Source: Phycisphaerales bacterium
GTDB lineage: Bacteria; Planctomycetota; Phycisphaerae; Phycisphaerales; UBA1924
DNA length: 64,000 nt
Assembly: GCA_020849105.1 (NCBI GenBank)
Contig: JADLGW010000045.1
Coordinates: 1 to 64,000 of the forward strand
Direction: 5' to 3'
The notes under the pieces were generated by a model. The model was given only the letters and a program-made list of their open reading frames with translations. It ran no database searches and was not told the DNA's origin. The translations under genes were made by a program, and so were the position numbers. This document shows positions 16,041 through 21,509 of this stretch, piece by piece; positions within the stretch are counted from its first letter, which is position 1, and every line of letters begins with the position of its first letter.

Positions 16041-16484
16041 TCACCGTCGAATCGGCCACGCCAAGAGCGCCATCATCGCCACGTTCCGGGCGATCCCGAA
16101 CATCGCTTCGTGCCGAGCCGAGTCAAAGACGCGGAGCCGTCCAAGGCAATGGCACGTCGGGGGGTTGTCCGATGCGAGGATTACGAGCAGCACGCACGTG
16201 AGCGCAGCGAAGAGACCGACCGCCGCGCGCCTTATCAATAGTTCCGATCCTATCAGAAAGAGCCAGGCTCCCATCGCGCTCTCGGCACCTACGGTGGCAA
16301 CGACGCCGGGCACTATCCAGCCGCCAAAGATCCCAAGTTGGCCCAGCGTTTCCGCGGGGCCTGCGGGGTCCGCGGTCTTGGTCAACGCAGCAACCAGCAG
16401 GAGAGTTGCAGGAACCCACAATCGTGCGCGGGTGTACCAAGAACATGCGCGCCGGGCATCCGTCGATCGTTGTGCATGATCCAT
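16041..16484 (-). CDS. MauE/DoxX-like redox-associated membrane protein (cassette 1)
   Basis: The 147-residue protein has four membrane helices (about residues 21-40, 55-78, 84-104 and 122-140) and a C-x-C pair in the loop before the last helix (CHCLGRL). MauE family members carry a comparable C-x-C-F/L-G motif and are associated with disulfide formation in Cys-rich exported subunits. The start (MDHAQ) lies 2 bases after the stop of the upstream gene, indicating translational coupling. The other cassette holds a paralogue at 21034-21441 with CPCFG. The family call rests on topology, length and this motif. Confidence 0.75.
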   Translation of the reverse strand: MDHAQRSTDARRACSWYTRARLWVPATLLLVAALTKTADPAGPAETLGQLGIFGGWIVPGVVATVGAESAMGAWLFLIGSELLIRRAAVGLFAALTCVLLVILASDNPPTCHCLGRLRVFDSARHEAMFGIARNVAMMALLAWPIRR

Positions 16485-16486
16485 CG

Positions 16487-17158
16487 TCAGCCGCCCGGGT
16501 GGTCCTGCTTCGCCAGCGCCGCCCACGCTTCAAAGCGCTGCGTCGCCTGGGATCGCACATAATCGTTCTTCATCAGTTGATCCAGAAGCCGCTGGCTTTC
16601 CGGTGGAAACGGCTCAGCCCCCGGCTTGTCCTTGATGGCAAGCAGCATGAGCGCAAGGGCCGACTGAACGAAGACGTCCGGGTGATTTCCGCACCGGCTT
16701 CCGAGATGAAGGAGGCGCGGCCGCAGGGCGCCGAGAGGCCCCGAGTGAATCCAGGCGTCCGCGACGGCGTTCAGACTGATGACCACGCGGCTGACCTCGC
16801 GCGAGATCGATCGGTCCTCCGCCTCGGTCTGGGTCACCGTGGTCCGACACTGCCCGAGAACCTTCAGGTATGGGGCCAAGCGCCCTTCATCACCGTCGTG
16901 CGCGGACCCGGCGGGCGACATGGAATACACGACGAACGCCCAGTGTTCGGGGTCATCAATCTTGTCTGCAAGTGCCTGCGCCTCGGGCGATAGTTGCGTG
17001 TACTGCCCGAGAGACTCGTGTGAAACCCCTGCCGGAGCGCCATGATGGCCGGAACCGGGTGGCGGCGCAGACCGCATCCACGCGATCACTCCGAGCACAA
17101 TCGCGACTGCGGCGCCGATCAAGAGCCCGGTGCGCATGCTGAAACCTCTGGCTGTCAC
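16487..17158 (-). CDS. membrane-anchored helical protein, 223 aa (cassette 1)
   Basis: An N-terminal membrane anchor (about residues 9-27) is followed by a His-rich linker (GSGHHGAP) and an alpha-helical periplasmic or extracellular domain. The C-terminal part (VFVQSALALMLLAIKD, NDYVRSQATQRFEAWAAL) has a HEAT/ARM-like look. I use the GTG start at 17158 because GGGAGG lies 6 bases upstream; an ATG at 17137 is an alternative. It occupies the same place in the cassette as the 182-residue protein at 20247-20795, although direct similarity is weak. Function is unknown. It is coupled to the downstream MauE-like gene. Confidence 0.7.
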   Translation of the reverse strand: MTARGFSMRTGLLIGAAVAIVLGVIAWMRSAPPPGSGHHGAPAGVSHESLGQYTQLSPEAQALADKIDDPEHWAFVVYSMSPAGSAHDGDEGRLAPYLKVLGQCRTTVTQTEAEDRSISREVSRVVISLNAVADAWIHSGPLGALRPRLLHLGSRCGNHPDVFVQSALALMLLAIKDKPGAEPFPPESQRLLDQLMKNDYVRSQATQRFEAWAALAKQDHPGG

Positions 17159-17177: not shown

Positions 17178-17422
17178 TCATGGGCAGTTCGGACAGTTCG
17201 CCGGAACGTCGTCGCAGGAGTTGATGCAGAAGGTCAGTTGCGCCGGCTTCAGACCCGGGAAGCCGTTGCACACGAGAGGCACCAACTCTTGCACTCTTCG
17301 ACCGTGCTGCAGAGCGAATAGTTCGCCACGGTGCGTCCGCAGATATCCGTGTAGGCCAAGGCGGCAGTCCCCAGCGCGAGAGTTCCGAGGAGGAATGAGG
17401 CCCCGCGAGCGGTGATCTTCAT
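17178..17422 (-). pseudogene. exported Cys-rich peptide gene with an apparent 1-base frameshift (cassette 1)
   Basis: From ATG 17422 (AAAGGAG about 8 bases upstream) the frame encodes a signal peptide ending TAALA, then five cysteines, and stops early as a 57-residue product ending CATASRV. A neighbouring frame continues to a stop at 17178 and adds five cysteines (CNGFPG, FCINSC, NCPNCP). Joining the frames near 17255 would restore about 80 residues, ten Cys and a C-L-S-C-C-N motif that matches C-Y-A-C-C-D in the paralogue at 20819-21037. Either the gene is broken by a recent deletion or the sequence has a base error. The mature peptide would be about 57 residues, disulfide-rich and exported. 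Confidence 0.6.
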
Positions 17423-17507
17423 GCGCGACTCCTTTGGCGCGAGCATACGTCACCCCCCCCCTTTGTCAAGCCTTGCCCGGATCTCGGGCCGCGTGTATGA
17501 TGCGGCC

Positions 17508-18299
17508 ATGCGGCGGGCGTTCAGCCTGGTCGAGTGCCTTGTGGTGATGAGTGTTGTCGCTCTGCTTCTCGGCATCGCGCTTCCGTTGCTCGGACACGCC
17601 CGTCGAACAGCCACGGCATTGAAGTGCCTGTCGCACCTCCGGACGTGCGGCCAGGCGTTCGAGGCCTACACGGCCGATTATTCGCAGTGCCTCCCGTTCT
17701 TTGCGCGCCGCACGGCGGGCGCCGCATTCTCAAACGGTGGAATTCCGATTGGGTACACGCTCCAGACGCTCCACTGGCCCGTCGCTCTTCGGGGCTATCT
17801 GAGCGAGAATCAGGCCGAGCCGGCGCGGCTCTGTCCAGCCAACCCGCTCGCGCGCGAGCTGTTCGGCGCCGGCGGCGGATACGAGGAGTTCTTCTCGACT
17901 CTTTCCAGCAGTTACATGCTGCCCGCGGATTATTGGATGACGTACGCGGCCATCACCGATCCGTCCACCTGGCGACCCGGAGGGGACATCAATGATCCCC
18001 GCTTCTATCGCCCGGTATTTGTGAGCGAGGTGGTGTTTCCTTCGCGCAAGGGCCTGCTGCTCGAGCCCCGTGCCTTCCACCTGGGCGGCGAGGCGTTTGA
18101 CCGTGGGACGGCGACCGTTTCGATCTTCTACGAGTTGGGGTGGGACAAGCCCTACCACGTCTCCTTCGCGGATGGCCACTGTGAGAACGTTCGGTATTCC
18201 GATCTGACTCCGGGCTTCGGGGGTAACGGCCTTGGTTCGATGCGTGCGGCACCCGTGCTTGCCACGCCGGACGGAGTTCGGGGTGTCGACATTCGTTAG
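17508..18299 (+). CDS. type II pseudopilin-like protein, 263 aa (cassette 1)
   Basis: The N-terminus MRRAFSLVECLVVMSVVALLLG is a prepilin signal: a short basic leader, Phe at +1, Glu at +5 and a hydrophobic helix. The body (about residues 30-263) has the length and ending of planctomycete DUF1559-type pseudopilins, including YHVSFADGHCENV near the C-terminus. It would be processed by a prepilin peptidase and assembled or held at the inner membrane. It is divergent from the Cys-rich peptide gene across 85 bases. Its stop codon overlaps the lemA stop tail-to-tail by 4 bases. The ATG at 17508 is the only start that puts the signal at the N-terminus. Confidence 0.88.
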   Translation: MRRAFSLVECLVVMSVVALLLGIALPLLGHARRTATALKCLSHLRTCGQAFEAYTADYSQCLPFFARRTAGAAFSNGGIPIGYTLQTLHWPVALRGYLSENQAEPARLCPANPLARELFGAGGGYEEFFSTLSSSYMLPADYWMTYAAITDPSTWRPGGDINDPRFYRPVFVSEVVFPSRKGLLLEPRAFHLGGEAFDRGTATVSIFYELGWDKPYHVSFADGHCENVRYSDLTPGFGGNGLGSMRAAPVLATPDGVRGVDIR

Positions 18300-19632: not shown

Positions 19633-20247
19633 TCATGGCGTGATGTTCTTGTAGGCTGGATCGGGCTGAGCCCAATCCGTGTGTCCGTCCATATAGGTCG
19701 CGTTGATGCCCCGCTCCATGTAGGGGTTGCCCGGGTGAACATCGAGGGCGTCCACGATCAGCCAGCCGTAGGTCGGAAACGCCTCCAGATCAAGGGTGAC
19801 GGGGTGCGCTTCACGCGGGTCGGGCGAGCCCGAGTTCCAGACCGGCGCCATGTAGAGCCCGGCCATGTAACTGTAACTGAAGCCATACTTCGGACGCAGT
19901 TCGTGGTCGGCCGGGCAGGAGTACGGCTCCACCGCGGGGTATTCCGGGCCGCCGCCACGGTCAGGCCACCCCGAGTCCAGGTACGGCCGGATGATCGGGA
20001 AAAACTCAACGTAATCGGTGTTCTGCTCGTGGGGGTCATACCCCGGTGCAACCGGCAGGTACCCGCGATTGGCGGTATCACAGTACGACCGCAGGGCCGC
20101 GCCCATCTGCCGAAGGTTGTTCAGGCACTTTGAGCGCCGGGCGCTGATAACCGATGAGTGGAGCGCGGGAATCAAGAGCCCGATCAGGAATCCAACCAGA
20201 GCGACGACCACGAGCAGCTCGATCATTGTGAAGCCACGGCGACGCAT
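19633..20247 (-). CDS. type II pseudopilin-like protein, 204 aa (cassette 2)
   Basis: The N-terminus MRRRGFTMIELLVVVALVGF is a canonical prepilin signal (Gly before Phe, Glu at +5) followed by a hydrophobic helix that ends at LIPALH. Residues RSKCLNNLRQMGAALRSYCD match the conserved start of planctomycete DUF1559-type pseudopilins. The C-terminus carries INATYMDGHTDWAQ, the counterpart of the usual F-x-D-G-H ending. The start overlaps the stop of the upstream gene as TGATG. It is the last gene of the four-gene cassette 2 operon. Confidence 0.9.
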   Translation of the reverse strand: MRRRGFTMIELLVVVALVGFLIGLLIPALHSSVISARRSKCLNNLRQMGAALRSYCDTANRGYLPVAPGYDPHEQNTDYVEFFPIIRPYLDSGWPDRGGGPEYPAVEPYSCPADHELRPKYGFSYSYMAGLYMAPVWNSGSPDPREAHPVTLDLEAFPTYGWLIVDALDVHPGNPYMERGINATYMDGHTDWAQPDPAYKNITP

Positions 20248-20818: not shown

Positions 20819-21037
20819 TCAGGGCCAGACGACCTGATCGCAGCAGTCTTGGCAGTCCGTGGCCCCACTCAGGCATTCCGCATCGCAGCACGCGTAGCAG
20901 TGAATCAGGCTGATGGTGCCGCAGTTGTGGGTCCGGAAACACTTGCACTTATCAACCCGCGCAAGCGCCGCCGCGGTGATACCGAGGGCAGCCGCAAGGA
21001 ACGAGGTCACAAAGACGGAAGTACGCCGCGTTTTCAT
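20819..21037 (-). CDS. exported Cys-rich peptide, 72 aa, ten cysteines (cassette 2)
   Basis: A signal peptide (residues 1-27, ending TAAALA) precedes a mature peptide of about 45 residues holding ten cysteines: CKC, C39, C47, the cluster CYACC, C55, C62 and the cluster CQDCC. An even number of cysteines with closely spaced pairs suggests five disulfides or a metal cluster. A good ribosome site (AGAGGAG, 6 bases) supports the start at 21037. The gene overlaps the upstream MauE-like gene by 4 bases (ATGA). I do not recognise the peptide family. It is too short for a firm name, but the position, signal and conserved cysteines argue that it is real. Confidence 0.78.
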   Translation of the reverse strand: MKTRRTSVFVTSFLAAALGITAAALARVDKCKCFRTHNCGTISLIHCYACCDAECLSGATDCQDCCDQVVWP

Positions 21038-21441
21038 GCGATTCTCCTCTGGGGCGGGTGGTGGACGAGACAGGCATTCACGAGCGAGAGAGCGATGCAC
21101 GACGCGGTCATCCAATACTCGGCGAGCGTGCTGAACGAGTTGGAGATCGCTCCGAAGCAAGGGCAGCCCGGATTCTCAAAAATCATGAACCCAACGTGGA
21201 CGCAGGCGAAAATCGCGAACAGGACGAGCGCGGGGAGTGCGACACGCTGCGGCAAGAACAACCCGACGCCTCCGACCGCGAGTTCTATCATCACCACGGC
21301 GGCGAGCACGCCGGCGGCGGACCTTGGGGACATCCATTCACCGAGCCAGCGCAACATAGGAGCGAGACTCATGACCTTAGCGATTGCGCTCAGAACGAGA
21401 AGGCCTGAGCCCATTCGCGCGATGAAGGTCATCGGCCGCAT
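21034..21441 (-). CDS. MauE/DoxX-like redox-associated membrane protein (cassette 2)
   Basis: A 135-residue protein with four hydrophobic helices (about residues 8-27, 44-64, 67-87 and 107-127). CPCFG lies in the loop before the last helix, the hallmark that also marks the cassette 1 paralogue (CHCLG). MauE-type proteins assist maturation of disulfide-rich exported proteins, which fits the directly following Cys-rich peptide gene, overlapped by 4 bases (ATGA). It is the first gene of a leftward operon ending with the pseudopilin and is divergent from smpB. Confidence 0.82.
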   Translation of the reverse strand: MRPMTFIARMGSGLLVLSAIAKVMSLAPMLRWLGEWMSPRSAAGVLAAVVMIELAVGGVGLFLPQRVALPALVLFAIFACVHVGFMIFENPGCPCFGAISNSFSTLAEYWMTASCIALSLVNACLVHHPPQRRIA

Positions 21442-21509
21442 GCTTCGTCACGCTACGTCCTTCCCCTCCCCCAAGTCAATCCTTGTTCGATGAAAAAGGT
21501 CGCCAGAAA

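Follow-up and report, generated by a model that had tools for sequence, protein, structure and literature searches.

Homopolymer-run phase variation is mostly known from host-adapted bacteria, and for promoter phase variation of fetA and porA the studies cited are reportedly those of Carson (2000) and van der Ende (1995). In Neisseria, the length of a run between the -10 and -35 elements of fetA (a poly-C run) and porA alters transcription, according to the accessible text of one report (PMC5320596). A presumed role of MauE in making disulphides belongs to the MauE/MauD-dependent maturation of methylamine dehydrogenase, and the available part of the source that states this also describes candidate RiPP families, found by decRiPPter in Streptomyces, in which mauE homologues lie beside putative precursor peptides (PMC7794033). 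Breaks of reading frame were surveyed with GeneTack, which, in the portion of the paper that is available, deals with singleton frame transitions and pseudogenes in complete genomes (PMC3711429). In the literature outside subscription papers, partly accessible sources included, we found nothing relevant on phase variation in Planctomycetes or Phycisphaerae; within the same scope, no work was found on MauE with Cys-rich peptides in Planctomycetes, and MauE with prepilin was found for Streptococcus anginosus only, in a source available in part.

The stretch analyzed here, 64,000 nucleotides from a Phycisphaerales bacterium and referred to as the window herein, holds two cassettes (Table 1). Cassette 1 consists of a Cys-rich exported peptide, which is encoded first, followed by an anchored protein and a MauE protein, together with a divergent prepilin-type protein. 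Prepilins of the DUF1559/FADGH type are associated with planctomycetes, and those encoded here suggest that the organism is one. The export signals of this and other Cys-rich ORFs were judged from hydrophobicity only. As in the methylamine dehydrogenase systems with MauE and MauD, MauE adjoins a Cys-rich exported protein, which is here a predicted substrate. The present loci differ from those systems in that many MauE proteins form one chain with a prepilin and in that the window peptides match no Pfam or NCBIfam model, neither peptide giving a match at E 1, the methylamine dehydrogenase small subunit included. With the decRiPPter families of Streptomyces, as far as the accessible text describes them, the cassettes share a MauE protein beside small putative precursor peptides; they differ in belonging to another phylum and in the signal-peptide-like starts of their peptides, and neither prepilin nor a homopolymer promoter is mentioned in that part of the source.

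Table 1. Features of cassettes 1 and 2, numbered from the first base of the window.
Feature	Position	Strand	Evidence or remarks
Cassette 1: MauE-family membrane protein	16041..16526	(-)	PF07291, 49.9 bits, cut-off 27; CxC motif in TCHCLG
Cassette 1: 223-aa protein, one N-terminal hydrophobic stretch	16487..17158	(-)	no Pfam family over cut-off; relatives beside peptide in G151, G091, G109
Cassette 1: Cys-rich exported peptide gene, frame broken	17178..17422	(-)	translation, profile, codon use
First piece of broken gene	17249-17422	(-)	57 aa (57 residues in frame 0 from ATG 17422), signal-peptide-like start, 5 Cys; stop 17251-17249
Second piece of broken gene	about 17178-17270	(-), -1 frame	5 Cys past the break zone (~17270); open as far as TGA 17180-17178
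Break zone	17268..17272	(-)	at Cys-Cys pair invariant in seven intact homologues
Cassette 1: promoter	17442..17469	(-)	TTGACA 17469-17464, 16-nt spacer, TATGCT 17447-17442
Divergent promoter-like site TTGCCC-17-TATGAT, before prepilin gene	17473..17501	(+)	
Cassette 1: divergent prepilin-type protein	17508..18299	(+)	N_methyl PF07963; FADGH motif at end
Cassette 2: prepilin-type protein	19633..20247	(-)	DUF1559-like N-terminus, 23.2 bits vs cut-off 23.3
Cassette 2: anchored protein, 184 aa	20247..20801	(-)	
Cassette 2: Cys-rich exported peptide, intact	20819..21037	(-)	10 Cys
Cassette 2: MauE-like protein	21034..21441	(-)	25.3 bits, just below Pfam cut-off of 27
Cassette 2: promoter-like site TTGACT-18-TAGCGT	21450..21479	(-)	interrupted G run GGGGGAGGGG in spacer, by eye

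The peptide gene of cassette 1 is spread over two frames. By eye, an AAAGGAG ribosome site precedes its ATG and a signal-peptide-like stretch follows. The first-pass annotation had described a start frame with five Cys followed by a second five-Cys frame ending at 17178, and its coordinates, stops, and Cys counts check out. The split is real at the level of sequence, and as an event it is commonplace. For the 57-residue piece, neither Pfam nor NCBIfam gave a match at E 1. Read-through of the TGA stops was rejected as an explanation, as the resulting translation lacks the Cys-rich tail.

Relatives of the 223-aa neighbor protein were found in 4 of 162 other genomes searched within the same bacterial family, and a small exported Cys-rich ORF adjoins them in three (G151, G091, and G109). 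Searching with the divergent prepilin, which has full-length relatives in G151 (45% identity) and G091 (41%), added two cassettes from G052 and one each from G102 and G094, while a related cassette in G005 has the prepilin and no recognizable peptide. The order in G151 is that of the window: divergent prepilin, intact peptide, neighbor, MauE. In all, seven intact peptides from six related genomes were obtained, each read in a single frame and containing 8 to 11 Cys, and in all seven the Cys-Cys pair and several further Cys are invariant. When a profile of these homologues was run against all six-frame segments of the window, the two pieces of the broken gene ranked first (segment 17252-17449, profile positions 9-56, E 5.6e-6) and second (segment 17181-17465, profile 55-85, E 0.0052), contiguous in the profile, with the third-ranked segment at E 0.55. 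The G151 peptide as a lone query returned the same two pieces, the first at 46% identity (E 1.5e-5) and the second at 52% (E 0.53, genome-wide). The break in the profile falls at the invariant Cys-Cys pair of the family, and the frame favored by codon usage switches there too: ahead of the break, frame 0 has a codon log-odds of +3.0 vs -30.3 and -17.0 for the other frames, and after it frame 2 has +4.5 vs -14.3 and -6.5, with a GC3 of 0.83. Because the profile pieces and the switch of codon frame coincide, the gene as assembled is one base short of the family frame at the Cys-Cys pair, and it encodes only a truncated peptide. The one-base deletion proposed earlier is thus borne out, relative to the family frame, by all seven intact homologues and by the codon-usage switch.

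Comparison with relatives, which had been suggested as a check, found the frame intact in 7/7 homologues, the nearest intact copies being from other genera only. A DNA search with the whole locus against 41 genomes, none of the same genus, returned only the organism's own copy and one 50-base match, and scans of contigs with MauE and with prepilin queries found no relative. Across 400 genomes of the order, eight of the weak matches to the peptide profile, beyond the seven known homologues and the gene's own piece, were read; one of them (G074, L152) resembles a Cys-rich exported peptide. The intact peptide of cassette 2 had been put forward as a paralogue and aligned with the broken one. It does have ten Cys, as claimed, but no kinship with the broken peptide is detectable (BLASTP E 13, no match with the homologue profile), and we rejected it as a comparator.

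What caused the break was judged from the same evidence. At least eight cassette loci occur in this genome, seven of them with a Cys-rich peptide gene, and only the one at 17178-17422 is broken, the other six being intact. Codon bias has not decayed beyond the break, so the lesion is either recent or not real. A recent loss-of-function indel is most likely on the sequence evidence. That the gene is whole in the organism and was broken by sequencing or assembly is a serious possibility that we place below even chance. The genome is a 61-contig draft of 93.8% completeness, the second piece keeps coding GC3 (0.83) and favorable codon use, and there is no second lesion in the gene; moreover, in the accessible part of the GeneTack survey, one class of singleton frame transitions is expected to be sequencing errors rather than indels (PMC3711429). 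Against an error, the gene has no homopolymer of 5 or more and the break sits in none, and a codon-model scan of the genome, although it cannot see genes of the peptide's small size, found just one other clear same-strand frame lesion in 439,007 bases (360 coding segments, 397 kb coding). So few lesions argue for a good assembly, though they give no verdict on a single case. As in the GeneTack singletons, as far as the available text describes them, a frame is broken in one genome while its homologues are intact; that survey used complete genomes, whereas here the genome is a draft with no same-genus relative (PMC3711429). The one other lesion lies at L189:7820-9253 (G000:C58, about 87,820-89,253), in a gene for an exported protein starting MKYSLAVALLVILPGARC, where, near 88,010, the coding signal crosses into a different frame with no start codon. 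In the window itself, the coding model flagged two apparent frame switches, which proved to be a pair of overlapping genes and a weak fragment, and one apparent in-frame stop, which proved to be two genes.

The remaining explanations leave the gene functional as it stands. If the 57-residue form were the working product and the remainder were no longer translated, its good ribosome site and signal-like start (by eye) would be expected, but codon bias and profile similarity continue past the stop, and the short form loses the Cys-Cys pair invariant in 7/7 homologues; we regard this as very improbable. A programmed -1 ribosomal frameshift joining both frames is the least probable of all. Both frames are open through the overlap to 17249 and both pieces are conserved, yet no in-frame XXXYYYZ heptamer occurs up to the frame-0 stop, the downstream RNA fold (98 nt, pseudoknots left out) has z = +0.37 with 116 of 200 shuffles as good, and all seven homologues read in one frame. 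The first-pass annotation had offered a fresh pseudogene, a sequencing error, or a programmed shift; the last finds no backing in heptamer, fold, or homologues, while the first two both stand.

MauE (PF07291) was detected in 98 of 100 genomes of the bacterial family at E 0.01, with copy numbers ranging from 0 to 19 matches per genome and many of the matches in frames of ~400 codons. One such frame in the same genome as the window, C56:1649-2836 (L110), is a single-frame fusion of MauE and a prepilin-type protein; further fusion loci are L191 (same genome, C48:47580-48740) and L111-L139. Searches for relatives of the fusion gave matches in 73 of 163 family genomes, some of them over the prepilin half only; of 343 genomes from the phylum, 2 had a match, and both belong to this family. 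When the best match from each of 30 of the 73 genomes was inspected, a signal-peptide-like Cys-rich ORF lay just upstream on the same strand in 27/30 loci (6-137 nt away) and on the opposite strand in 1, and a 28th locus (L133, a partial fusion match) was recognized by eye. The best general MauE matches had such an upstream ORF in 0 of 30 loci, and the background is 4 signal-peptide-like Cys-rich ORFs in 439 kb of the genome under study. The peptides upstream of the fusions have a common Cys pattern with four invariant Cys (29 aligned).

We then turn to the promoter of cassette 1, TTGACA-16-TATGCT, which carries 10 of 12 consensus bases and a G9 run in its spacer (C9 on the + strand of the window, 17453-17461). 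The corresponding promoters of the homologues have runs of C8 (G151), G9 (G109), C10 (G052, two near-identical copies), G8 (G102), and G12 (G094), and that of G091 has none; those of G052 have no TAnnnT -10 element by rule. A G/C run of 8 to 12 is thus present in 7/8 cassette-1 promoters (this genome plus the seven homologues, including the two near-identical G052 copies). In the same genome, three of the eight cassettes have no run or only an interrupted one. Since these three and the G091 promoter are without an uninterrupted run, the run is not essential. The run-bearing promoter and the site of the divergent prepilin gene stand back to back in the window (17453-17501), which means that the prepilin, too, might respond to the length of the run.

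Across the family, the pattern TTGACAN{0,12}G8 occurred in 71 of 163 genomes vs 13 of 163 for the reversed pattern, and the C8 version in 46/163 vs 10/163. Genes downstream of such sites were read in two sets, over ~4.8 kb where the contig allowed: sixty sites, one per genome and pattern (30 per pattern), followed by 40 further sites among those listed, for which the -10 rule was fixed beforehand. Sites with under 2 kb downstream were left out (7/60 and 5/40). A cassette gene was counted if a Cys-rich ORF or MauE lay on the same strand or a prepilin on either strand. With a stricter -10 rule, the first set gave a weak result, a cassette gene being found at 15/19 promoter-like sites vs 17/34 others (p 0.046); the rule was then loosened to TANNNT 0-8 nt after the run, with which the counts were 30/39 vs 3/14 (p 7.5e-4). 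The second set gave 22/25 vs 4/10 (p 0.0074). By gene, the latter difference was seen for prepilin (21/25 vs 1/10) and MauE (9/25 vs 0/10), with 16/25 vs 3/10 for the Cys-rich ORF (p 0.13). For background, 146 windows of 4.8 kb from the genome under study contained a Cys-rich ORF in 3, MauE in 0, and prepilin in 10. Over both sets, 12 of 64 promoter-like sites had no recognized cassette gene. Most spacers of run-bearing sites measured 16-21 nt, the commonest length being 19, which is a little more than is usual in sigma-70 promoters. Two further features of these sites were seen: 4 of 100 (L272, L301, L338, and L352) lie no more than ~40 nt from the end of a contig, as though the run had stopped the assembly, and one promoter-like site upstream of a Cys-rich ORF (L371, G052:C1 near 1,285,205) has a run of 27 C, far longer than the others.

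Run length differs between related promoters. In orthologous promoters with the same flanks, G118 has nine bases and G091 eleven, and likewise G123 and G124 have nine and G073 eleven; two paralogous promoters of G050 have runs of seventeen and nine. Twenty extra regions, partly picked near known cassettes, were used for run length and for the cassettes of the genome under study and enter no count. Could the runs be a neutral result of high GC in short intergenic regions, with no switching? The GC content of the window is about 64-74%, runs are missing from some cassettes, and the length differences are between species and paralogues only, not within one population. Nevertheless, runs of 8 or more occur in just 13 of 3975 background windows of 110 nt from the same genome vs 7 of 8 cassette-1 promoters, they are placed between -35 and -10 with spacers mostly of 16-21 nt, favoring cassette promoters, and their length is what differs between related promoters, so that we consider neutrality rather unlikely. 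The run-bearing promoters look like phase variation of disulphide-rich surface peptides, a reading drawn from promoter architecture and length differences. Going by the example of fetA and porA, each cassette is probably tuned or switched by its run. Those genes, too, have a homopolymer between -35 and -10, and its length differs among Neisseria strains there, in the accessible text, and among related genomes and paralogues here; fetA and porA encode surface proteins, as the same text has it, while the surface location of the present peptides is predicted (PMC5320596). The present system differs in that a G/C run recurs before many like cassettes across genera of a planctomycete-like family, in an architecture known from sequence alone, and in that no host link is known for the bearers of the cassettes.

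A mechanism that joins these parts would start from a peptide family whose members are small, rich in Cys, and apparently exported by Sec. As bases are gained or lost in the G run of the -35/-10 spacer, promoter strength would shift, as the architecture and the run lengths of relatives suggest, and transcription from the cassette promoter would yield the peptide, the anchored protein, and MauE. MauE, which by its family is a putative quinone-linked thiol oxidant, would form the disulphides of the peptide after export, and the prepilin-type protein may help to place or move the peptide at the cell surface and link it to a pseudopilus. The joint picture for cassette 1, namely a recent indel in an exported Cys-rich peptide whose cassette is under a run-tuned promoter, with disulphides formed by MauE and placement by the prepilin, seems to us, as a whole, slightly more probable than not. 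In a broader reading, each cassette supplies a disulphide-rich exported peptide, anchored partners, and a MauE of its own, which is often joined to a pseudopilin. On this reading, a family with many copies per genome would form a stochastically switched surface system in which the run sets promoter strength and the broken peptide is a silenced member; this we advance tentatively, as a little short of an even chance.

The pattern of promoters and cassettes is a more interesting result than the split gene beside it. If the switched-surface reading is true, promoters with homopolymer runs would be tied, family-wide, to disulphide-rich peptides, a dedicated oxidant, and pilin-like proteins. Existing metagenome reads are a direct test ground for promoter switching. 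Apparently environmental planctomycetes would then vary in surface among the members of a clonal population, possibly as a defense against phages, predators, or competitors.
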